From the NCBI RefSeq assembly GCF_000379665.1, contig NZ_KB903359.1, positions 1,393,340 to 1,457,339 of the forward strand: a stretch of DNA of 64,000 bases. Direction: 5' to 3'. Below the pieces are notes generated by a model, which searched no databases, was not told where the DNA came from, and saw only the letters and a program-made list of their open reading frames with translations. This DNA is from Butyricimonas synergistica DSM 23225. Its GTDB lineage: Bacteria; Bacteroidota; Bacteroidia; Bacteroidales; Marinifilaceae. How positions within the stretch are numbered: position 1 is the stretch's first letter; every line of letters begins with the position of its first letter. Shown here piece by piece: positions 263 through 27,178 of this stretch. The position numbers and the translations under genes were made by a program.

Positions 263-1759
263 TCAGTACGCTTTTAATACATTTATCTCGTCCTGGGTTA
301 AAAAACGCCAACGTCCTCTAGGCAGATTTTTCTTTGTAATCCCAGCAAAGAAGACCCGATCCAAGCGAAGAATCTGGTATCCCAAGTGCTCGAATATCCT
401 ACGAACGATGCGGTTTCTCCCCGAATGGATCTCGATTCCGACTTGAGTCCGGTCATCCGCTGCAACTTGAACATCGTCAGCCTGCACGAACCCGTCTTCC
501 AGATCGATACCTTTCCGTATCGCCTCCAAATCACCGGATTTTACCACCTTATCCAAGAATACATGATAAATCTTTTTTTGGTTGTACTTCGGGTGCGTCA
601 ATTTTTTAGCTAAATCTCCATCATTCGTGAAAAGCAATACACCCGTGGTCTGGCGATCCAAACGTCCGACCGGGTAAACCCGCTCTTTGCAAGCCCCATC
701 TATCAAGGACATCACGGTTTTTCGCTCCAGCGGATCTTCCACCGTGGTCACGTAATCTTTCGGTTTATTCAGCACGATATATACTTTACGTTCCGGCACG
801 ATCACCTGCTCGTCCACCTCGACCGTATCCGTTCGTTTTACTTTTACTCCCACTTGTTGCACAACTTCACCATTCACTTTCACCCGTCCGGAAGTGATCA
901 ACACGTCGGCATCACGCCTGGAACAGATACCACCCTTGGCAATAAAACGATTCAAACGCAATTCCGTCTCCTGACCTTCATTTTTCTTGCGGAATTCTAT
1001 TTGCTTTTTCTTACTGTACACGCTTTTCGCTCCCCCGTCACCATCAAATGATCTTCTCGGTCGTTCGGTAAATCTTTCCCGCCGATCGCCTCGATCTTCC
1101 CGATTCTCTCTCTCCCGGCGATCATCTCGCCTATACTCGTTACGATTCCTGTCTTGAAAACGATTATCACGGTTACCATCCTGGGGACGTCTTTCCCGAC
1201 GTTCGCCACGATCAGAATCCCGGTTATTATCCCGGTTATCGCGATATTCCCTGTTATCCCAGTTGTCTCGATTATACCGGTCATGGTTGTAGCGGTTATC
1301 CCGATTACCATTGTCCCGATTATACCGGTTATCCTGACTATTCCGGTCTCGGTTGTAGCGGTTATCCTGGTTATCCCGATTGTATCGACTGTCTCGATTA
1401 TCCCGGTTTTCGCGATTGTCCCGGTCAAACGATCTCCTCGGTCCCCGGCTATTATTATCCCGGTTTCCGAAACGATTGCCTTCACGTGTTCCTCTTTCCC
1501 GGTTTCCATCCGTCTCCCGACGATAACGATTCCCGTTGTCCGAATCCCCGGATTGTTCTCTCGCCCTTTCTTGATTCAAATCACGGATAAATCCATATCC
1601 TTGCTCCCGGTCAGAGCGATCCGTGTTGAAACGGTTGGGTCTTTTAAATTCTCTTTCTCCACCCTCTCGGTTTCCGAAATTTTGTGTACTGCTCCGACGA
1701 TTCTCATCACGATTCTCTATCGGTCTAGTAATCCTAGGTCTTTTAGTTTCCCTACTCAT
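263..1759 (-). CDS. rluB: 23S rRNA pseudouridine synthase RluB-type with long RNA-binding-like N-terminal tail
   Basis: Converts a uridine of 23S rRNA to pseudouridine (RluB/RsuA family; site inferred from the family). Residues about 268-315 form the S4 RNA-binding domain (LRLNRFIAKGGICSRRDADV) and the catalytic domain follows with the signature GRLDRQTTGVLLF, where D368 is the predicted catalytic aspartate. Total length is 498 residues, roughly twice the E. coli-type enzyme, because residues 1-255 are a low-complexity tail rich in R, D, N and G with many RYNRDN and DNRDNR repeats. It is the last gene of the tgt-lptF/G-rluB run, 84 bases after the permease. Bacteroidetes homologues often carry Arg/Gly-rich tails, but this one is extreme. 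Family call is sure; tail function is unknown. Confidence 0.93.
   Translation of the reverse strand: MSRETKRPRITRPIENRDENRRSSTQNFGNREGGEREFKRPNRFNTDRSDREQGYGFIRDLNQERAREQSGDSDNGNRYRRETDGNRERGTREGNRFGNRDNNSRGPRRSFDRDNRENRDNRDSRYNRDNQDNRYNRDRNSQDNRYNRDNGNRDNRYNHDRYNRDNWDNREYRDNRDNNRDSDRGERRERRPQDGNRDNRFQDRNRNEYRRDDRRERENREDRGDRRERFTERPRRSFDGDGGAKSVYSKKKQIEFRKKNEGQETELRLNRFIAKGGICSRRDADVLITSGRVKVNGEVVQQVGVKVKRTDTVEVDEQVIVPERKVYIVLNKPKDYVTTVEDPLERKTVMSLIDGACKERVYPVGRLDRQTTGVLLFTNDGDLAKKLTHPKYNQKKIYHVFLDKVVKSGDLEAIRKGIDLEDGFVQADDVQVAADDRTQVGIEIHSGRNRIVRRIFEHLGYQILRLDRVFFAGITKKNLPRGRWRFLTQDEINVLKAY
1190..1480. repeat. Degenerate tandem repeats encoding the RYNRDN/DNRDNR tail of RluB
   Basis: On the plus strand the stretch is built of units like CGGTTATCCCGATTAT and CGGTTGTAGCGGTTATC, degenerate 12- to 24-base repeats in frame with rluB. 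They encode residues about 100-185. Such repeats are prone to slippage, so tail length is likely to vary among strains (inference). They also create long false open frames on the other strand. Confidence 0.8.
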
Positions 1760-1821
1760 GTTTTAATTACCAATTTTAATTTTTGATTTATATCCATCAC
1801 GCGAGCCGACGCTCATTTGCA

Positions 1822-1844
1822 ATTTTTCATTTTCAATTTTCAAC
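1822..1844. repeat. TTTTCAA-type heptamer tract between permease gene and rluB
   Basis: Reads TTTTTCATTTTCAATTTTCA, a short run of the ATTTTCA heptamer also found at 18341-18373, 22855-22880 and 53447-53477. It lies in the spacer of a presumed operon and carries no gene. Confidence 0.6.
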
Positions 1845-2926
1845 TACTTCGGTGCCGCCCTGTAAACAAAAAACGCCACCACAGAGAACAGAATATTCGG
1901 TATCCATACCGCTAATAACGGATTCATGTTTCCATTGGTTGCAAAAACCGTCGAAAATTGCATGAATAAAATGTATGAAAAACTGATTAACAAACCCAAT
2001 CCCAAGTGGAATCCCATCCCCCCGCGTATTTTCCGGGAGGCAATGCTCACACCAATTAATGTCAGAATAAAAGTGGAAAAAGCCCCCGAGAACATCTTGT
2101 ACTTCTCGATCTGGTATTCCACCACGTTACTACTCCCCCGCAATTTTTGCCGGGCGATATATTCGTCCAGTTCCGGTAACGTCAAACGTTCTTTGATCTT
2201 TTTCGGGTCTTCGGTAAACTCTTCTACCTTAAAATTCAAGACGGTATCTATACTCTCTTTCCCGACAGTATAAGTTTCGTTTATCCCGTCAAATTCACGA
2301 GCGACCCACTTATCCAGCGTCCATTTCTTTTTTTCCTCGTTCCACGTGATCGACTCGGCTGACAATTTACTGACAAGCGTGTCATCCTTGAACACCTCGT
2401 AGGTAAAATTATCCCCCCGCTTGCGGTAAATATTAAAACCACTCATGTAGATATATTCGCCGGGAGCCACCTGTTGGTGAACATTATTCTCCTTGAAATT
2501 ATACGCTTTCCATATATATTTTTCAGAAAAATCTATTCGCTTCTTATTCGCGTTCGGAATAATAAACGCGCTCAACAAAAGAGACAAACAAGCAATGACC
2601 CCAGCAGCAATCATGTACGGGCGCACCATACGCCGGAAACTGATTCCGGTACTCAGGATTGCAATAATTTCGCTATTATAAGCCATCTTGGAAGTAAAGA
2701 AAATCACGGAGATAAACGTGAACAAGGCAGAAAACATATTAGCGAAATACGGCACGAAATTCACGTAATAATCGAAAATAATCGCCTGCACCGGGGCTTG
2801 CTTCTCGAGGAATTTCTCCAAGCGTTCCGAAAGGTCGAAAACGATCACAATACTCAGAATCAGTACCATCGAAAAAAAGAAGGTACCCAAGAATTTCCGG
2901 ATAATATAGAGGTCTATTTTTTTCAT
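1844..2926 (-). CDS. LptF/LptG (YjgP/YjgQ) family permease
   Basis: Inner-membrane component of the Lpt machine that lifts lipopolysaccharide from the inner membrane toward the periplasmic bridge. The protein starts MKKIDLYIIRKFLGTFFF, typical of the family, has N-terminal hydrophobic helices, a central periplasmic beta-jellyroll-like region (about residues 130-250) and helices at the C-terminus. I chose the ATG at 2926 and not the one at 2998: the longer form would overlap tgt by 50 bases and adds a polar, non-family extension. The gene lies 22 bases after tgt, in one transcription unit. LptF and LptG cannot be told apart here. Confidence 0.88.
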   Translation of the reverse strand: MKKIDLYIIRKFLGTFFFSMVLILSIVIVFDLSERLEKFLEKQAPVQAIIFDYYVNFVPYFANMFSALFTFISVIFFTSKMAYNSEIIAILSTGISFRRMVRPYMIAAGVIACLSLLLSAFIIPNANKKRIDFSEKYIWKAYNFKENNVHQQVAPGEYIYMSGFNIYRKRGDNFTYEVFKDDTLVSKLSAESITWNEEKKKWTLDKWVAREFDGINETYTVGKESIDTVLNFKVEEFTEDPKKIKERLTLPELDEYIARQKLRGSSNVVEYQIEKYKMFSGAFSTFILTLIGVSIASRKIRGGMGFHLGLGLLISFSYILFMQFSTVFATNGNMNPLLAVWIPNILFSVVAFFVYRAAPK

Positions 2927-2948
2927 TTTTACCAGGTACCTCGCGGCA

Positions 2949-4079
2949 CTATAATCTTCTTGTAACTTTTTTAATTGTCCTTGTTTTCCACTCCGCAAAA
3001 TCCCCTGCCAATATATGTTGGCGTGCTTCCCGCACTAACCACAAATAAAACGACAAATTATGGATCGAGCAAATTTGCAAGCCTAAAATTTCATCCGCTT
3101 TTATTAAATGTCGTAAATAAGCTTTCGAGTAATCGGTATCCGCGAAGCTCAATCCAGCGGGATCGATAGTGCTAAAATCACACTCCCATTTCTTATTCTT
3201 TATATTGATTACGCCCTCTGTCGTGAACAACATCCCGTTTCTCCCGTTGCGGGTCGGCATCACGCAATCGAACATATCGACGCCCAAGGAAATCGCTTCC
3301 AGTATATTCTCCGGGGTTCCGACCCCCATCAGGTAACGAGGCTTATCTTGTGGTAAAATCCAATTGACCACTTGAATCATCTCGTACATTGTTTCCGCTT
3401 CCTCGCCGACAGCCAGTCCCCCGATAGCGTACCCTTCACGATTCAAGGCCACGGCGTGCTCTGCCGCCCGTTCCCGCAAATCTTTATACACGCATCCCTG
3501 CACGATGGGAAAAAGCGATTGATGATAACCGTATAGCGGTTCCGTGGCGTCAAATTGCTTCACGCATCTTTCCAACCAACGTTGAGTAAGTTCCAGCGAT
3601 TTCTTCGCGTACCCGTAATCGCTTTGTCCCGGGGGACATTCATCAAATGCCATCACGATGTCCGCCCCGATTTTCCGTTGTATATCCATCACATTTTCTG
3701 GGGTAAACAGATGTTTTGATCCGTCTATGTGAGAACGAAACACTACCCCCTCTTCCGTGATCTTGCGACAATCTCCTAACGAAAAAACCTGGAATCCACC
3801 GCTATCCGTAAGAATAGGACGATCCCACGAATTGAACTTATGTAACCCTCCCGCGGCTTCCAAGATACCCGTGCCGGGACGCAAATACAAGTGATAGGTG
3901 TTTCCCAAGATGATCTGGGCTTTAATATCTTCCTTCAATTCCCTCGCGTGCACCGCTTTCACGGTTCCCACCGTGCCCACGGGCATAAAAATCGGAGTTT
4001 CGATATTCCCATGATCCGTGGTCAACACACCGCACCGTGCATCGCTATTCTTGTCTGTTGCTAAAAGGGTATATTTCAT
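2949..4079 (-). CDS. tgt: Queuine tRNA-ribosyltransferase
   Basis: Exchanges guanine-34 of Asp, Asn, His and Tyr tRNAs for a queuine precursor (preQ1 in most bacteria). Typical 376-residue length. Family motifs are present: GNTYHLYLRPG, DSGGFQVFSL with the substrate-binding aspartate, GGLAVGE, and VMPTRNGRNG preceded by the nucleophile region FDC. The zinc-binding CxCxxC motif expected before YSKAYLRHL is absent; the segment there contains only one cysteine (ECDFSTIDPAGLSF). From memory this loss is usual in Bacteroidetes Tgt. First gene of the run with the LptF/G permease and rluB, with a promoter at 4101-4108. Confidence 0.95.
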   Translation of the reverse strand: MKYTLLATDKNSDARCGVLTTDHGNIETPIFMPVGTVGTVKAVHARELKEDIKAQIILGNTYHLYLRPGTGILEAAGGLHKFNSWDRPILTDSGGFQVFSLGDCRKITEEGVVFRSHIDGSKHLFTPENVMDIQRKIGADIVMAFDECPPGQSDYGYAKKSLELTQRWLERCVKQFDATEPLYGYHQSLFPIVQGCVYKDLRERAAEHAVALNREGYAIGGLAVGEEAETMYEMIQVVNWILPQDKPRYLMGVGTPENILEAISLGVDMFDCVMPTRNGRNGMLFTTEGVINIKNKKWECDFSTIDPAGLSFADTDYSKAYLRHLIKADEILGLQICSIHNLSFYLWLVREARQHILAGDFAEWKTRTIKKVTRRL

Positions 4080-4100
4080 CTAATCATGATTTTGAGCCTG

Positions 4101-4108
4101 CAAAGATA
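4101..4108 (-). promoter_or_regulatory. -7 element before tgt
   Basis: The minus strand reads TATCTTTG, matching TAnnTTTG, 22 bases before the tgt start. It likely drives tgt, the permease gene and rluB. Confidence 0.6.
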
Positions 4109-4243
4109 GCACAACTAAACGAGAGTTGCAACACTAACTTTTCCGGTTCAAACGTATCATCTCATACAATCTCCCAAAACGGGCGCGTGCTTTTGACCAT
4201 GATCCCGCTTTGTTCATAGAGCACAAACCGACAGTTATCCCAT

Positions 4244-4381
4244 GGTAATCCCAAGGAGAAACTACCTCTCAACAGTTACAAGATAGTTACAAGGCACTTG
4301 CAACACCATTGACCAGCGATGCTGCAAGTACGTTGAAACTTACTCACATGTAAGTAGAGGCAGGATTACCTTGGGATTACC
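4244..4381. repeat. Structured intergenic element A (nested inverted repeats)
   Basis: Perfect 13-base outer inverted repeat GGTAATCCCAAGG (4244-4256) and CCTTGGGATTACC (4369-4381). Inside are a tandem pair of AGTTACAAG-like units, a stem ACTTGCA (4296-4302) with TGCAAGT (4323-4329) around a 20-base loop, and a hairpin ACTTAC/GTAAGT at 4338-4355. Elements at 21200-21335 and 34442-34575 have the same inner stem with a 20-base loop. Confidence 0.65.
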
Positions 4382-4479
4382 CCGAATTGAAGGTAGGTCG
4401 ACCCGAATCAAACCGCCTGAAAAATAAAGACTGCCGTATTTTCAGGGGGAGATACGTTCTCTATCTTCCCCATTTTTTA

Positions 4480-4487
4480 TATCTTTG
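4480..4487 (+). promoter_or_regulatory. -7 element before the DPP-IV gene
   Basis: TATCTTTG, 26 bases before the chosen ATG at 4514. Because it spans the alternative GTG start at 4487, it supports the shorter protein. Confidence 0.65.
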
Positions 4488-4513
4488 TGGGGTTAAAATT
4501 AAAAATAATCGCC

Positions 4514-21369: not shown

Positions 21370-21948
21370 TTAGTACAACTCCTGGAATAATTCAAAGAAT
21401 CCCTGTGGATGCAGGCAAGCGGGACAAACTTTCGGGGCTGCAGGTCCCTCGTGGATATAACCGCATTTACGGCAATACCACCTCACGGTTTGCGGGCGTT
21501 CAAATACCAAATTTTCTTGTAAATTGGATAGTAATTTACGATACCTTGTTTCGTGATTTTTCTCCGCCTCGATAATCATTCGGTACATCACGGCAATATC
21601 CTTGAAGCCCTCTTCCTCTGCTACTTTAGCAAATTCCGGATACAGGTGATGCCATTCATCATATTCTCCTTCTGCTGCTTCAATCAAGTTAGAAGCCGTA
21701 TCGGCGATGATACCCGCGGGATAAGCAGCCGTGATCTCCAACATCCCGCCTTCCAGGCGACTAAAGAAACGTTTAGCGTGCATCTCTTCCTGTAATGCCG
21801 TTTCGTAGAAGATTCCGGCTATTTGTTCGTAACCTTCTTTTTTGGCTACTTCAGAGAAAAACGTGTAACGATTTTTTGCTTGCGACTCTCCGGCAAACGA
21901 TTTCAATAGATTGGCTTCCGTCATGGAACCTTTAACATTCTTTACCAT
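21370..21948 (-). CDS. rbr: Rubrerythrin
   Basis: Cytosolic non-haem iron peroxidase that removes hydrogen peroxide in anaerobes, fed by NADH via rubredoxin-type electron donors. 192 residues from the ATG at 21948, start MVKNVKGSMTEANLLKSF as in homologues; the earlier ATG adds a Lys-rich stretch not found in the family. Diiron ligands: FAGESQAKNRY, the EEMHAK motif, and the second helix pair ending EAEKNHETRY. The C-terminal rubredoxin-like domain has CRKCG and CPACLHP. Divergent from the Hdr-like cluster, with 210 bases between them. Confidence 0.94.
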   Translation of the reverse strand: MVKNVKGSMTEANLLKSFAGESQAKNRYTFFSEVAKKEGYEQIAGIFYETALQEEMHAKRFFSRLEGGMLEITAAYPAGIIADTASNLIEAAEGEYDEWHHLYPEFAKVAEEEGFKDIAVMYRMIIEAEKNHETRYRKLLSNLQENLVFERPQTVRWYCRKCGYIHEGPAAPKVCPACLHPQGFFELFQELY

Positions 21949-22103
21949 AGCTTTTTCCTTTTTCTTACGGAAAGGGAAAGTTACAGGTTGCAAGTTTACA
22001 GGTCACAAATGCCAATATAGCCTGTTTCTAAATAAGCTGCTGGTAGTATAAATACCATTCACATTTACGCATTTTCATCCTTTAGTTGTCACGTATTTAG
22101 ATA

Positions 22104-22111
22104 TAATTTTG
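22104..22111 (+). promoter_or_regulatory. -7 element before the Hdr-like cluster
   Basis: TAATTTTG, 47 bases before the first ATG at 22159. A TTG at 22086-22088 may be part of a -33 element, at slightly short spacing. Confidence 0.5.
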
Positions 22112-22158: not shown

Positions 22159-22851
22159 ATGTCTAAGATTTTAAATAAATTACGTGAAGATATTCACTTC
22201 ATCGAGGGAATGAACAGTTGCATGAATTGCGGGGTATGTACCGCTATTTGTCCAGCTGCCGAATTTTACAATTACGATCCCCGGGTGATCGTGGAAACCG
22301 TGCAACGGGGAAACGAGGAGGAGATCGAGGAATTACTGAAAAGCAACACGATCTGGTACTGTGGAGAATGTATGTCGTGCAAGACCCGTTGTCCGCGTTG
22401 TAATACCCCGGGACTGATTATCATGGCTTTGCGCAAGGTATCACAAGAACTAGGGTATTTCGTCTACTCGGAGAAAGGACGCCAGCAATATGCCTTGAAA
22501 CACGTGATCGGGGAATCCATTCTGAACCGGGGATATTGTGTCACGCCCGATCTGGTAAAACCGGAAATGCACCCGGAACAAGGTCCCGTGTGGGAGTGGA
22601 TATACGAACACTTGGATGACGTGTACGAACGGATGCACTCGAATTATCGCAAGCCGGGAGCCGGTGCTTTACGGGAAGTTGATAACGAGAGCATGGACGA
22701 ACTGCGAAAGATTTTTGACGTCACCGGGGGCACTGAATTCCTGAATAACATTGACCAATGTTCTCAACGTGAGGCTGACAATGAAAAGGTAGACTTGGAA
22801 GAAGCCTATTTCCTAAAAACATACATGGAGAACACGGGAAAACATCAATAA
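22159..22851 (+). CDS. HdrC-like ferredoxin subunit (two 4Fe-4S clusters), first gene of cluster
   Basis: 230 residues. Two cluster-binding motifs: C21-x2-C24-x2-C27-x3-C31 and C68-x2-C71-x2-C74-x3-C78P, the pattern of heterodisulfide reductase subunit C, with one extra cysteine at 81. The C-terminal 130 residues are longer than in methanogen HdrC and have no motif I recognise. In Hdr complexes this subunit wires the flavoprotein to the CCG subunit. The organism type should lack coenzyme M and B, so the final acceptor must be another disulfide, quinone or low-potential carrier (inference). 33 bases separate it from the HdrB-like gene. Confidence 0.85.
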   Translation: MSKILNKLREDIHFIEGMNSCMNCGVCTAICPAAEFYNYDPRVIVETVQRGNEEEIEELLKSNTIWYCGECMSCKTRCPRCNTPGLIIMALRKVSQELGYFVYSEKGRQQYALKHVIGESILNRGYCVTPDLVKPEMHPEQGPVWEWIYEHLDDVYERMHSNYRKPGAGALREVDNESMDELRKIFDVTGGTEFLNNIDQCSQREADNEKVDLEEAYFLKTYMENTGKHQ

Positions 22852-22854
22852 AGC

Positions 22855-22880
22855 AATTGAAAATTGAAAATCTAAAATCA
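22855..22880. repeat. ATTGAAA-type tract in the Hdr-like cluster
   Basis: Reads AATTGAAAATTGAAAATCTA between the first and second genes of the cluster, the same motif pair as at 18341-18421. A shorter relative lies at 25013-25026. Confidence 0.6.
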
Positions 22881-22884
22881 GAAG

Positions 22885-23961
22885 ATGAATCTAGAGGGCA
22901 AACAACAAATATGGAATGATTACCAGAAAGAGATAGCGGACGATCATTATTTTTACGCGAGAAGTTGCATTCGCCAGACTTTCTTTCCGGGATCGGAATG
23001 GGCGTACTTGGACATCATGAAAAACAAGTTGGGCAAGGATGTCGTGGACGACCCAAGGCACACGACTTGCACCGGGATCGGGTATCACTCGGACATTGTA
23101 CCGGCGGAAACTATCATGACCGTCGTGGCACGCCATTTCGCGCTGATGACTGAAGCCGGATACGAGAACATGACCCCCTCGTGTATCACCTCTTTCGGGA
23201 TATATACGGAAATTCTTGAAACTTGGGAGCACCACCCGGAGATCGAGGAAAAAATACGGGAATACTTGTGGAAAGCCACGAAACGGGAGTTCAACAAACC
23301 GAAGAATCTAGCACATACGTCGGATATCATCTATAAATTCAGAAACGAGATTGCCACTCAATCTAAATATAAACTGGTGAACGTCCACACGGGAAGACCA
23401 TTGAGAGGCGTAGATCATATCGGCTGCCACTATTCCAAGATGTTCCCGACAAAAGGCATCGGAGGGGCGGAATTTCCCGCCGTATTATCGGGATTGATTT
23501 ATGCCTGGGGAGGTGACGTCATCGATTACCCGGAAAGAAGGCATTGTTGCGGGTTCGGTTTCCGCCAATACCTTGTGATGGCGAACCGGGGATACTCGGT
23601 AGCAAACTCCAAAAAGAAATTCGAATCCATGCAACCGTACCAACCCGATTTTATCGTCGCTAATTGCCCGGGATGCGCCATGTTCATGGACAAATGGCAA
23701 TACACCATCAGTGAGATGGAAGGCACAACCTATGGGCAAGACGGGTACGGAATTCCCGTGTTGACCTACGAAGAACTTTCCGCATTAGTACTGGGATACG
23801 ACCCGTGGGAAATCGGCTTGCAAATGCACCAGGTTTCCGTGGAGCCATTGCTGGATAAAATGGGCATCCCGTACGATCCGGAGGCGAAATACAAAAACGT
23901 GCGAGGAGAAAATATCGGAGCCCCGAAGTGCCCCACGTACCTAAGAGTTGCAAACTTATAA
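22885..23961 (+). CDS. HdrB-like CCG-domain protein
   Basis: 358 residues. In methanogens HdrB carries the noncubane iron-sulphur clusters that split the heterodisulfide. The C-terminal CCG motif is complete: GCHYSKMFP, then RRHCCGFGFRQ about 30 residues later and NCPGCAMFMD after it (C-xn-CCG-xn-CxxC). The N-terminal CCG repeat is weaker: SCIRQTFFPG, TTCTGIGYHSD and SCITSFG are cysteine sites, but no second CCG is seen. Family call is firm at the level of CCG-domain proteins of the HdrB type; the substrate is unknown. 34 bases precede the next gene. Confidence 0.85.
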   Translation: MNLEGKQQIWNDYQKEIADDHYFYARSCIRQTFFPGSEWAYLDIMKNKLGKDVVDDPRHTTCTGIGYHSDIVPAETIMTVVARHFALMTEAGYENMTPSCITSFGIYTEILETWEHHPEIEEKIREYLWKATKREFNKPKNLAHTSDIIYKFRNEIATQSKYKLVNVHTGRPLRGVDHIGCHYSKMFPTKGIGGAEFPAVLSGLIYAWGGDVIDYPERRHCCGFGFRQYLVMANRGYSVANSKKKFESMQPYQPDFIVANCPGCAMFMDKWQYTISEMEGTTYGQDGYGIPVLTYEELSALVLGYDPWEIGLQMHQVSVEPLLDKMGIPYDPEAKYKNVRGENIGAPKCPTYLRVANL

Positions 23962-23995
23962 TGTTAAACCACGAAATTAATTTTCAATTAAATAC

Positions 23996-25024
23996 ATGGC
24001 AAAAGTCATTATCATCGGCGGAGGTCCGGCAGGCTGCGAGGCGGCACACCAATTGGCAAATCAAGGAATCGAAGTAGAGTTGGTTGAAAAAAGTAATGAA
24101 ACCGGAGGTAACTTGAACAACTGGTACCAACTATTTCCCGATCGCAAGTACGCCAAGGATCTGAATGCTATATTAAAAGGACATCTGGAGCACCCGAATA
24201 TCCGGTTACACCTCGGGATGGAACCGAAAAAAATAGAGAAAAGCAAAACCGGAAAATTCAACGTACCGTTAACAGACGGGAGTTTGCTGGAAGGCGATTC
24301 ACTTTTAGTCGCTACCGGATTCAAGATATTCGATGCCCGCCGGAAAGAAGAGTACGGGTACGGGATATACGAGAACGTGATTACCTCCGTGGAACTCGAG
24401 AATATGTTCTACAATCACGCCATCACGACGGCTGGGGGCAATACCCCAAAACGGGTCGGCATCATCCATTGCGTGGGTTCTCGTGACGAAAAAGTGTGCA
24501 ATTACCATTGCTCCAAACTCTGCTGTATCACCGGGGTAAAACAGGCTATCGAAATCCGGGAACTGTTACCCGAGGCGGAAATTTTTTGTTTCTACATGGA
24601 TATGCGTATGTTCGGACCGGGATACGAGGAAATGTACCGGGAGGCTCAAGAAAAATATAACATCAAGTTCATCCGCGGACGATTGTCCGAAGCGGCAGAA
24701 AATATGCAAAAACAATTGCAGATCAAAGTTGAAGATACGCTAGTTGGGAAACCGCTGCGTATGACACTGGACATGATGATCTTACTGGTCGGGATGGAAT
24801 CCTCGGAAGGGACCCGCCAAACCGCAGGAGAACTGGGATTAAATCTGGCTCCCAACGGATTCATCCAGCCACAAGACCCGCACTACCGGAACAATTTCAC
24901 CAACGTGGAAGGAGTCTTTGTGGCAGGATGCGGCAGTGCCCCGATGAATCTTACCGACACGCTGGCTGACGCCCGTTCTGCCGCAAGTTGTATAACGGCT
25001 TACGTCAAAAATCATAAAATCTAA
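23996..25024 (+). CDS. HdrA/QmoA-like FAD oxidoreductase
   Basis: 342 residues. The N-terminus has the dinucleotide fold IIGGGPAGCEAAHQLANQG, and the C-terminus the FAD motif GVFVAGCGSAPMNLTDTL. A cysteine group VCNYHCSKLCC corresponds to the iron-sulphur motif that distinguishes HdrA and QmoA from plain flavin oxidoreductases. It is much shorter than methanogen HdrA and lacks the extra ferredoxin inserts, closer to QmoA-size proteins. Whether it can bifurcate electrons cannot be told from sequence. Ten bases separate it from the next gene. Confidence 0.85.
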   Translation: MAKVIIIGGGPAGCEAAHQLANQGIEVELVEKSNETGGNLNNWYQLFPDRKYAKDLNAILKGHLEHPNIRLHLGMEPKKIEKSKTGKFNVPLTDGSLLEGDSLLVATGFKIFDARRKEEYGYGIYENVITSVELENMFYNHAITTAGGNTPKRVGIIHCVGSRDEKVCNYHCSKLCCITGVKQAIEIRELLPEAEIFCFYMDMRMFGPGYEEMYREAQEKYNIKFIRGRLSEAAENMQKQLQIKVEDTLVGKPLRMTLDMMILLVGMESSEGTRQTAGELGLNLAPNGFIQPQDPHYRNNFTNVEGVFVAGCGSAPMNLTDTLADARSAASCITAYVKNHKI

Positions 25025-25033
25025 AATTAGAAG

Positions 25034-25381
25034 ATGATAAATTTCTGGGGATATAGTATATCGGAAACGAGAAGCATCAATTACGACAAGAACGACAAGG
25101 CAATGACAGAGTATATTGCCGCTACCGTTCCGAGCAGCAAACTTTGCATCGGTTGCGGGGGATGCACCGCAGGATGTACCGCGGGAAACCTCACGGACTT
25201 CAATATCCGCAAAGTACAGATGCTCATGAAGAGAGGCGAAACGAAAGATGCCAAAGAACAATTGCAGAAATGTATGTTATGCGGCAAGTGCATGCTGGTA
25301 TGTCCGAGAGGGGTAGAAACCCGAAAGATGATATTAGAAATGCTGAATTTCATAAAAACCAACCAAAAACTAGAAGATTGA
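25034..25381 (+). CDS. Second small HdrC-like ferredoxin
   Basis: 115 residues with two 4Fe-4S motifs: CIGCGGCTAGC (C-x2-C-x2-C-x3-C) at about residue 38 and CMLCGKCMLVCPRG at about residue 80. The N-terminal 23 residues (MINFWGYSISETRSIN) are not motif-bearing; an alternative start is the ATG at 25103, giving MTEYIAATVPSS. It lies 10 bases after the flavoprotein gene and 4 bases before the membrane subunit gene, so it is co-transcribed and probably links the two. Confidence 0.85.
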   Translation: MINFWGYSISETRSINYDKNDKAMTEYIAATVPSSKLCIGCGGCTAGCTAGNLTDFNIRKVQMLMKRGETKDAKEQLQKCMLCGKCMLVCPRGVETRKMILEMLNFIKTNQKLED

Positions 25382-25385
25382 AGCT

Positions 25386-27149
25386 ATGTATTACGACCAT
25401 TTCGTCCTACCTTTCACGATCGGGCTTATAACATTACTGATATACTTGTGTTTCAAATACTACAAGTGGATCAAGAGTTTCCCCCGGGAGGAACGCAAGA
25501 AAATCCGCAAAGGGTTATTCTCCTTGCAAACGATTCGTTCCGGGTGGGAAATATTCAGGGAAAGCTTGCTACATCATAAAATATTCAAGACCAACCCGAT
25601 GTTGGGGTATATGCACATGACGTTCGCGTTCGGGTGGTTCCTGCTGATCGTTGTCGGGAAGATAGAATCCATGGTATACCATACCAGTGCTTTCAATCCT
25701 CCTTATTTCGCTATCTTTTTCCGGTATTTTCATCCGGCAAACGAAACTTTCCCGTACAGTGAAACATTCGCCTTCCTGATGGATTTAATCCTTCTATTCT
25801 TGTTGATCGGCATCACTTTAGCCATCACCAAACGTTTCTATTCCCGCCTTTTCGGCATGAAGAAAACAACCAAGCAGAGAGCGTACGACTTGTTGATATT
25901 AACCGTTCTTTGGCTGATTTTCCCGGTACGTTTTCTGGCAGAAAGTTTCACGAGCGGTCTGAACGGGGGAGGTAGTTTCCTCACATACAATGCCGGAAAC
26001 TTCTTCGGTAGTTTCCTTCCTCTGGAGCATCTCTCCTACCCGGCATGGTGGGTGTATTCCTCTTTACTCGGGTTATTCTTTCTGCTTCTCCCCTTCTCCC
26101 GCTATATGCACATCCCGACGGAAATGGTATATATCTTCCTGAAAAACTGGGGAGTAAAACAAGGTAGAGAATATAACGGGTATAGCGAAATACAGGTGAA
26201 TGCCTGCTCCCGGTGCGGTATTTGCATCAACACGTGCCAACTGAACAGTTCATGCGACATCAATGACATCCAACCGGTTTATTTCCTGCGCCGCATACGT
26301 AATCACGAGCCGTTAAGTAAACAAGCAGAAAATTGCCTAATGTGCGGACGCTGCGAGGCATCTTGTCCCGTGGGAATCAACTTGAACGCCATCCGGCAAA
26401 GCCAACGCCCGGACACCATTCGGGTGGTAAAAGACACGTATGCCTACGTTCCCGAACCGGAAGTAAAGCGAGCAAAAGTGGCTTATTTTGCCGGATGCAT
26501 GAGCCATCTTACCCCCGGCATCATCAAATCCATGCAACAGATATTCGAGAAAGCGAAAGTAGATTACTCCTTTATCGACGAGAGAGCCGGAATTTGCTGC
26601 GGTCGCCCGTTAGCTCTTTCCGGGAACTGGCAAGCCGCCCAAATCGTCATGGACAAAAATCAAGAAATGATCGAGGCGTCGAATGCCGATATACTCGTGA
26701 CGTCCTGCCCGATATGTTACAAGACATTTAAAGAGGATTATACCTTGAAAGCCCAAATAATGCATCACACGGAATATATCGAAATGCTGATCCGGGAAGG
26801 ACAATTGAAAGTAAACAACATGGACGTGAAGACCGTGTTCCATAATCCTTGCGAATTGGGACGAGGCAGCCAGATCGTACATGCCCCGGAGAACGTGTTG
26901 AAACAAGTCAGTTACAAAATAACAACCGTGTACGACGGCAAGAAATCACTTTGCTGTGGCGGCAGTCTTGCTAACACGGCTATTGATTCCGGGCAAAAGA
27001 CAAAAATCAGCGGGGATACGGTAAAAGCTTACACCGCTTATCATCCGGACGTGATTGTAACGGCATGCCCGTTATGCAAGAAAACATTAAGCAAAACATC
27101 CACCGAGATTCCTGTCAAGGATATAGCGGAGCTGGTTGCTGAAGCATAA
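25386..27149 (+). CDS. Membrane HdrE/HdrD-like fusion: nitrate reductase gamma-type helices plus ferredoxin and two CCG domains
   Basis: 587 residues. Residues 1-265 hold about five hydrophobic helices with histidines in YMHMTFAFGWFLL that could bind haem b, as in HdrE/NarI-type subunits. Then two 4Fe-4S motifs, CSRCGICINTC and CLMCGRCEASCPVG (about 274-325), and a C-terminal pair of CCG modules: AGCMSHLTPG, AGICCGRPLA, TSCPICYKTF, then NPCELGRG, SLCCGGSLANT, TACPLCKKTL. This is an HdrE-ferredoxin-HdrD fusion and should connect the membrane menaquinone pool to the soluble HdrABC-like subunits. Last gene of the cluster, followed by a terminator at 27153-27175. Confidence 0.88.
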   Translation: MYYDHFVLPFTIGLITLLIYLCFKYYKWIKSFPREERKKIRKGLFSLQTIRSGWEIFRESLLHHKIFKTNPMLGYMHMTFAFGWFLLIVVGKIESMVYHTSAFNPPYFAIFFRYFHPANETFPYSETFAFLMDLILLFLLIGITLAITKRFYSRLFGMKKTTKQRAYDLLILTVLWLIFPVRFLAESFTSGLNGGGSFLTYNAGNFFGSFLPLEHLSYPAWWVYSSLLGLFFLLLPFSRYMHIPTEMVYIFLKNWGVKQGREYNGYSEIQVNACSRCGICINTCQLNSSCDINDIQPVYFLRRIRNHEPLSKQAENCLMCGRCEASCPVGINLNAIRQSQRPDTIRVVKDTYAYVPEPEVKRAKVAYFAGCMSHLTPGIIKSMQQIFEKAKVDYSFIDERAGICCGRPLALSGNWQAAQIVMDKNQEMIEASNADILVTSCPICYKTFKEDYTLKAQIMHHTEYIEMLIREGQLKVNNMDVKTVFHNPCELGRGSQIVHAPENVLKQVSYKITTVYDGKKSLCCGGSLANTAIDSGQKTKISGDTVKAYTAYHPDVIVTACPLCKKTLSKTSTEIPVKDIAELVAEA

Positions 27150-27152
27150 AAA

Positions 27153-27178
27153 AAGCCGCGATTGCGGCTTCTTATTTC
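27153..27178 (+). terminator. Terminator after the Hdr-like cluster
   Basis: Stem AAGCCGC (27153-27159) with GCGGCTT (27164-27170), loop GATT, tail CTTATTTCTT. The convergent pdxA-like gene ends at 27179. Confidence 0.8.

Follow-up and report, generated by a model that had tools for sequence, protein, structure and literature searches.

A widespread, conserved and apparently undescribed membrane-anchored relative of the sHdr system in Bacteroidales

Results

The five genes

We analysed a stretch of 64,000 nucleotides from Butyricimonas synergistica DSM 23225 (contig NZ_KB903359.1, positions 1,393,340 to 1,457,339; hereafter the window), in which a first-pass annotation had picked out five genes as a membrane-linked cluster resembling heterodisulfide reductase (Hdr). 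All five open reading frames (ORFs) are intact and lie on the plus strand with intergenic gaps of 33, 34, 9 and 4 bases, and Pfam and NCBIfam find the domains that had been claimed: a 4Fe-4S dicluster in C1, one CCG stretch in B1, a Pyr_redox/HdrA-like flavoprotein in A, a second 4Fe-4S protein in C2, and Fer4 with two CCG stretches in E. To call the set mixed, partly HdrABC-like and partly HdrDE-like, describes its architecture well. The annotation overlooked the match to the sHdr sulfur-oxidation system, which shows in the order of the genes and in three of the five proteins. The host genome (4.77 Mb, 16 contigs) has one match to A. In window coordinates the genes are:

22159-22851, plus strand: C1, 230 amino acids (aa), sHdrC1-type, two [4Fe-4S] motifs and a long C-terminal extension (ORF, Pfam/NCBIfam, alignment)
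22885-23961, plus strand: B1, 358 aa, sHdrB1-type CCG protein (ORF, Pfam/NCBIfam, column counts)
23996-25024, plus strand: A, 342 aa, short sHdrA-type FAD protein (ORF, single-stretch match to 6TJR)
25034-25381, plus strand: C2, 115 aa, small HdrC-type protein, two [4Fe-4S] (ORF, Pfam/NCBIfam, column counts)
25386-27149, plus strand: E, 587 aa, membrane protein with five hydrophobic segments, two [4Fe-4S] and two complete CCG domains

Conservation of the cluster

Related five-gene sets are common in the order Bacteroidales. Of 393 genomes sampled from the order, 127 have B1, a tally that admits E-values up to 1e-30 and counts orphan and partial copies. The closest named relative is Butyricimonas sp. 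Marseille-P3923 (L028), whose A is 93% identical; A stands at 88-93% in five sampled genomes of the same genus, and across the 22 named loci L028-L049 it falls from 93 to 49% identity while C1-B1-A-C2-E is kept, apart from truncation at contig edges. Together with L067, L068 and 60 places (L105-L164) picked from B1-positive Bacteroidales genomes, with second copies chosen on purpose, these make up a set of 84 loci. The 60 picked places hold 46 full clusters and 14 with C1-B1 only. In the whole set, 67 loci carry all or part of A, C2 and E downstream of B1 (full loci), 16 have C1-B1 only (orphans; since second copies were chosen deliberately, 16 of 84 is not a frequency), and L049, whose sequence ends ahead of E, is counted with neither; one genome contributed both L142 and L143, and L129 is without C1 at a contig edge. 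In the 66 of 84 loci with all five genes detected, they always follow one another in this order, even where A has dropped to 41% identity, so that the cluster is more than chance. The median span is 4952 bases (61 measured).

No neighbour family recurs around more than 10 of the 67 full loci, and the five genes therefore look like a self-contained unit; the same count agrees with the earlier remark that the cluster has no partner oxidoreductase. The most recurrent family (10 of 67) is a chained response-regulator group, named by sequence reading, as were the Mrp, ferredoxin-MinD, NifX-like, radical SAM and rubrerythrin families that appear below. Among the five proteins, B1 is the most conserved in the named Odoribacteraceae loci L028-L040. 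One of these loci, L039, also has part of a second C1-like sequence (3954-4202; residues 1-83 at 69% identity) ahead of its full cluster. In a sample spanning the phylum, B1 occurs in 3 of 395 genomes, namely the host and two with sHdr type II-like clusters; we rely here on B1, since a search with A (16 of 395), limited to five scored candidates per genome, cannot be trusted for a multi-copy family.

Cofactor-ligand sites

The eight ligand cysteines of C1 are invariant in 64 of 64 rows from full loci (3 of the 67 were too short and were dropped) and in 16 of 16 orphans. B1 has two CCG sites, the second of which is a full five-Cys non-cubane motif (C181, C221, C222, C261, C264). The first, formerly described as weak, consists of three Cys and a Thr (C28, C62-T63, C100, with S103); at residue 63, Thr or Ser replaces Cys in 65 of 67 full loci (the others have one Gly and one Ala) and in all 16 orphans. 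Ligand cysteines of B1, the three of the first site included, are invariant in all 67 full and 16 orphan loci, so the supposedly weak site is conserved.

In A, the ligands C159, C172, C176 and C177, which we take to be those of the unusual HdrA cluster near FAD, are invariant in 68 of 68 rows, as are the eight ligand cysteines of C2 (68 of 68); two C2 rows and one A row with internal stops were kept in these counts, with stops read as X. E was followed through 64 rows, four of the 67 full loci being dropped as too short. Its eight ferredoxin-type and ten CCG cysteines (C371, C404, C405, C441 and C444 in the first CCG domain; C489, C523, C524, C561 and C564 in the second) are invariant in 64 of 64, the last four Cys in 63 plus one gapped row, and His63, His77 and His242 are invariant in all 64. 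Early column counts included two overextended rows, the B1 of L037 (700 aa) and the C2 of L032 (407 aa).

Comparison of A, B1 and C1 with sHdr proteins

Our sHdr references are the PDB entry 6TJR, which we take to be sHdrA of Hyphomicrobium (the listed molecule name differs), the loci L065 and L066 from the Bacteroidota family f17, and a plasmid locus of Acidithiobacillus ferrooxidans, L104; named type I clusters, with their B1 and C1 sequences, are not among them, and in the PDB methanogen HdrB is the sole reference for B1. L065 and L066 carry C1, B1, A, a fused Fe-S/CCG protein, and EtfBA-like, EtfD-like, GcvH-family (LbpA-like) and DsrE-family genes, which is a type II-like sHdr arrangement inside Bacteroidota; EtfBA was named by sequence reading, without a library scan, as was a rhodanese-like tail noted among the neighbour families. 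The L104 stretch, 787-4490, has a lone sHdrB1-like gene near genes annotated as glycine cleavage H protein and hemerythrin-domain proteins, with neither C1 nor A annotated.

A aligns with 6TJR in one stretch over the whole protein (residues 2-332), whereas its alignment with methanogen HdrA falls into two stretches, split by HdrA's own inserts; 6TJR alone aligns in one. The earlier assignment of A as HdrA/QmoA-type was right in that it is an HdrA-like flavoprotein, and in detail it is of the short 6TJR type, without the ferredoxin parts of methanogen HdrA. Its four cluster ligands are also kept in L065, L066 and the cyanobacterial locus L050, to which we return below. C1 aligns with the C1-like proteins of L065 and L066 up to residue 200, tail included, at 31%, and in L066 Ser replaces one of the eight Cys. 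The first-site pattern of B1 (three Cys, Thr63, Ser103) recurs in the B1-like proteins of L065, L066 and L104, while L050 has Gly at position 63; the position of Cys261 is held by Asp in L065, L066 and L104 and by Cys in L050. In a B1 tree all Bacteroidales sequences form one group apart from L065, L066, L104 and L050, with long branches and an unsure deep order.

With a short A of the 6TJR type, a degenerate first CCG site in B1 and a long tail on C1, these three proteins point to sHdr rather than to Qmo or methanogen HdrABC. According to passages of PMC11582611, A, C1 and B1, the last being the proposed catalytic subunit, are common to sHdr types I and II, and C2/B2 or B3 sets the two apart. 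The two types vary in their second half, and we count it in favour of an sHdr variant that the same half varies in the Bacteroidales cluster: the C1-B1-A core is there, with an sHdrA-type flavoprotein and an sHdrB1-type CCG protein, and neither a hyp gene with soluble C2/B2 nor a fused B3 is.

The membrane protein E

The view of E as an HdrE-ferredoxin-HdrD-type fusion with five helices agrees with its five hydrophobic segments, Fer4 domain and two CCG stretches. E has the two complete CCG motifs of HdrD and, fused to them, a predicted counterpart of the membrane cytochrome HdrE, with five hydrophobic segments and conserved His. Its best NCBIfam match is CoM/CoB-linked TfrB, at 106 bits against a cut-off of 385. 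Aligned by hhalign with the EtfD-like proteins of L065 and L066, E matches at 99.8% probability over 510 columns, membrane domain included, with His77 on their His72 and His242 on their His239. For mycobacterial EtfD itself we used PDB 9ojn, which we assume to be the same protein (both have 1042 residues). Here phmmer places Cys405 of E on Thr539 and Ile443 on His583 (stretch E-value 4e-10); Cys405 is found in 64 of 64 rows and Ile443 in 63 of 64, with one Tyr.

Passages of PMC13083937 describe EtfD as an electron wire to menaquinone that has five helices, His78 and His241 as ligands of heme b, a putative site for menaquinone, two [4Fe-4S], a linear [3Fe-4S] where Thr539 replaces Cys, and a non-cubane cluster capped by His583. 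At sequence level E has this layout of five helices, bis-His heme b (predicted), two [4Fe-4S] and two CCG domains, but not the linear [3Fe-4S] or the capped site. The membrane link proposed earlier, most likely to menaquinone, is supported by the hydrophobic segments and conserved His of E, by the EtfD-like alignment that takes in the membrane part, and by menA, which is present in the host genome.

Partner genes

In 899,361 bases around the 67 full loci we found no match to LbpA, DsrE or Etf, with a positive control. The host genome has two PF01597 matches, of which one is a GcvH with the usual EAVK lipoyl Lys region. The other (L052:1498-2001, minus strand) is GcvH-like, with a signal-peptide-like N-terminus and no Lys at the lipoyl position; both descriptions are sequence readings. 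The expected absence of an APS reductase partner was upheld in that aprA (TIGR02061) has no match in the host genome, a search without a positive control because 0 of 14 control genomes pass the cut-off either. Siroheme reductase (PF01077) was not found in the host genome. Within the family, PF01077 occurs in 0 of 23 genomes with a full-length A (including G046, at 41% identity) and in 15 of 33 others, while across the order B1 is present in 12 of the 25 genomes that have PF01077 (odds ratio 2.0, Fisher p = 0.12, the B1 tally including orphans). The anti-association with siroheme sulfite reductase is thus absent order-wide, and we treat the family pattern as shared ancestry. We also discarded an ETF link to butyrate formation, since ETF alpha is found in 55 of 56 family genomes and does not discriminate.

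Orphan C1-B1 pairs and a cyanobacterial relative

Of the 16 orphan loci (L125, L128, L131, L136, L141, L145, L146, L149, L151, L152, L154, L156, L157, L158, L067 and L068), 15 lie in two supported B1 clades, and L125 groups with full clusters. DUF134, a Pfam name taken from one member, occurs near 9 of the 16; other neighbours are Mrp-type ATPases (8), ferredoxin-MinD ATPases (8), two NifX-like families (7 each) and radical SAM genes. CoA-disulfide-reductase-like genes occur in 4 of the 16 (three were scanned and score 220-365 bits, below cut-offs), and methionine gamma-lyase-like genes in 3 of the 16 and in the full locus L132 (one scanned, below cut-off). Passages of PMC6345978 tie an Mrp/ORP protein to Fe-S biogenesis. 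These contexts suggest that the C1-B1 module has to do with sulfur or Fe-S chemistry, the orphan pairs being possibly a second, separate use of it.

On a plasmid of Picosynechococcus sp. PCC 7003 (L050, 12113-17853) the order C1-B1-A-C2-B2 is followed by a flavoprotein, whose best NCBIfam match, type III sulfide:quinone reductase, is weak (83 bits against a cut-off of 525). This flavoprotein is possibly a different protein at the quinone end.

Regulatory signals and flanking gene

Two further features border the cluster:

22104-22111, plus strand: candidate Bacteroidetes-type -7 element, TAATTTTG, weak, without a well-spaced upstream element
27150-27173, no strand: terminator-like hairpin common to the cluster and a convergent gene, hairpin scan at chance level for the region

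We do not find the claimed promoter convincing. TAnnTTTG, which presumably represents the Bacteroidetes-type -7 consensus, is present at 22104, and no TTG was found 17-23 bases ahead of it; of 61 clusters tested, 11 are preceded by the complete pattern, and a sigma-70 scan of the cluster region is at chance level only. The claimed terminator survives as the shared hairpin above, although the 6 terminator-like hairpins in the region match the shuffled mean of 6.1.

A rubrerythrin-like gene (window 21370-21993, minus strand) diverges from the cluster and also appears in fetched flanks of 6 further loci, five of them in Butyricimonas, Sanguibacteroides and Odoribacter. These five probably share the gene by descent, and we consider it too weak as a functional clue.

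Discussion

Our analysis indicates that the cluster is, as far as seen, a widespread, conserved and apparently undescribed membrane-anchored relative of sHdr, whose function we infer. No description of it or of its function, hence no characterised role in Bacteroidetes that would overturn the earlier annotation, was found in the literature searched, from which subscription papers were mostly out of reach, so that an account may exist elsewhere. The passages of PMC7382037, PMC10266427, PMC12054007, PMC12345210, PMC13293266 and PMC10332631 that we consulted do not describe it. In those of PMC7382037, Bacteroidota are among the groups given for Fix/Efd, with Flox-Hdr placed in two other phyla, and those of PMC12345210 assign 334 of 406 sHdr to Proteobacteria.

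What could such a cluster do? We tentatively favour a menaquinone-linked thiol or persulfide oxidoreductase, which would be a membrane-anchored, LbpA-free variant of the sHdr kind. The architecture is well supported; we infer that the proteins form a complex that binds heme and quinone, and likewise its class of substrate and its direction. The five proteins would form one membrane-anchored complex, in which the soluble second half of sHdr, which is C2B2 in type I and a fused B3 together with EtfAB and an EtfD-like protein in type II, would be replaced by C2 and the EtfD/HdrDE-like E. A cytoplasmic thiol, persulfide or protein-bound sulfane would be handled at the non-cubane cluster of B1, and electrons might then pass through C1 to the FAD and [4Fe-4S] of A, on to C2 and the clusters of E, and from there over a b-type heme on invariant His to menaquinone, with fumarate as a likely final acceptor. 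The ten-Cys site of E may serve as a second sulfur-active site, in which case a flavin-coupled two-site mechanism is conceivable; the coupling of two potentials by HdrABC-like and HdrDE-like modules, raised in the first-pass annotation, is likewise possible. Sulfur oxidation at the thiol or sulfide level runs downhill to menaquinone, and ordinary disulfide reduction from menaquinol does not. Given a menaquinone potential of about -74 mV (passages of PMC10734219), thiol/sulfide-level oxidation should therefore be favoured over ordinary disulfide reduction.

A number of observations weigh against this proposal. The best PDB scores of A belong to methanogen HdrA (229 bits, 9sfi), with 6TJR fourth at 205 bits, and the first site of B1 is without two of five Cys. 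In the alignment to 9ojn, His242 of E does fall on the heme ligand His241, yet the membrane piece concerned scores negative, and E is without Thr539 and His583 of EtfD. Around the full clusters (67 loci) we found neither a substrate gene nor a sulfur carrier. The orphan pairs are paralogues in other clades, so that their context may not apply to the full cluster. Above all, LbpA was not found in the host genome, where both PF01597 matches were read, whereas passages of PMC6067878 report LbpA in all of 56 prokaryotes with hdr-like loci, and those of PMC10332631 have it accompany shdr with very few exceptions. Set against this near-universal presence, its absence from the host makes it unlikely that the sulfur chemistry is the same as in sHdr. 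We thus regard the cluster as built on an sHdr-like core and yet departing from sHdr in a defining feature, in other words as a variant rather than as sHdr.

A true sulfite-forming sHdr complex, using a carrier other than LbpA, is very improbable to us. It would account for the shared core and gene order, but it has to contend with the empty LbpA, DsrE and Etf search around the full loci, with host PF01597 matches that are a GcvH and a GcvH-like protein without lipoyl Lys, and with A and C2 of the window having no hyp gene between them. If instead E, as an HdrDE-like enzyme, used menaquinol to reduce a high-potential cytoplasmic disulfide, with A, B1 and C1 feeding or regulating it, one would understand why complete HdrD-type twin CCG motifs stand behind an HdrE-like membrane domain and why TfrB is the best NCBIfam match, below cut-off as it is. 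Most thiol disulfides, however, lie below menaquinone in potential, which makes the reaction uphill, and we know of no heterodisulfide-forming enzyme in these hosts, which we also count against it; we consider such a reductase distinctly unlikely.

A bifurcating or confurcating role between NADH or ferredoxin and menaquinone seems unlikely too, though less so than the other two rivals. The core of A is homologous to bifurcating HdrA, against which it scores higher than against 6TJR, and keeps the four cluster ligands; E is homologous to EtfD-like proteins, EtfD being a wire to menaquinone; and C2 could dock a ferredoxin-like partner. Against these points, A (342 aa) lacks the terminal ferredoxin domains of HdrA, and the cluster contains no NAD-binding or Flx-type subunit; for the NAD link entertained in the first-pass annotation we see no positive evidence. 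E, moreover, keeps its ten CCG cysteines and is without His583 and Thr539 of EtfD, which suggests chemistry over wiring.

Taking the thiol or persulfide oxidoreductase further, we may be dealing with a third kind of sHdr-type machine, menaquinone-linked and LbpA-independent, in which two CCG sites (B1 and E) are coupled via one flavin and which brings sulfur-derived electrons into anaerobic respiration, widespread in Bacteroidales and including gut Butyricimonas and Odoribacter; we put this forward as a rather speculative proposal. In the portions of the literature available to us, sHdr belongs to sulfur oxidisers and is almost always accompanied by LbpA. An intact sHdr core, apparently membrane-anchored, across Bacteroidales with no LbpA found beside it would imply that the core enzyme is separable from the lipoate shuttle, and the cluster points to a probably menaquinone-linked redox route in these bacteria. 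Annotation based on the C1-B1-A core alone may mislabel them as sulfur oxidisers.

How does the cluster compare with known systems? Type I sHdr, like our cluster, has a short flavoprotein, which in our case aligns to 6TJR, presumably Hyphomicrobium sHdrA. The type I order hdrC1B1A-hyp-hdrC2B2 with LbpA, as given in passages of PMC6067878, has the same succession of C1, B1, A, C2 and a final CCG protein, but our cluster has no hyp gene (the A-C2 gap is 9 bases), no LbpA was found, and its last gene encodes a membrane protein with its own ferredoxin domain, not a soluble B2. With type II, or group III (C1B1A-B3, EtfAB, EtfD-like), it has in common the C1-B1-A core, the degenerate first CCG site of B1 and an EtfD-like membrane protein. 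It differs in that C2 is separate, that no EtfAB, LbpA or DsrE was found nearby, that E alone, with complete CCG sites, replaces B3 and the EtfD-like protein, and that B1 keeps Cys261 where L065 and L066 have Asp.

Methanogen HdrDE and HdrABC are related to the cluster through CCG, HdrC and HdrA homology, A scoring best on methanogen HdrA; A nevertheless aligns to the flavin core only, without the N- and C-terminal ferredoxin domains, the HdrD- and HdrE-like parts are fused in E, and the CoM/CoB heterodisulfide is not expected in the host. QmoABC also combines an HdrA-like flavoprotein with a membrane quinone link, but its subunit set is another one, our cluster having CCG subunits and its host no aprA that we could find. 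Mycobacterial EtfD, the ETF:menaquinone oxidoreductase, resembles E in its five membrane segments, two [4Fe-4S] motifs and two CCG domains; E has Cys405 for Thr539 and Ile443 for His583, which would give HdrB-like uncapped sites rather than shielded ones, and sits in an Hdr-type cluster, not beside EtfAB. The Picosynechococcus locus L050 has a common C1-B1-A-C2-B2-like order, with A 45% and B1 40% identical to ours, and where it has a soluble B2 and a flavoprotein, the Bacteroidales cluster has the membrane fusion E.

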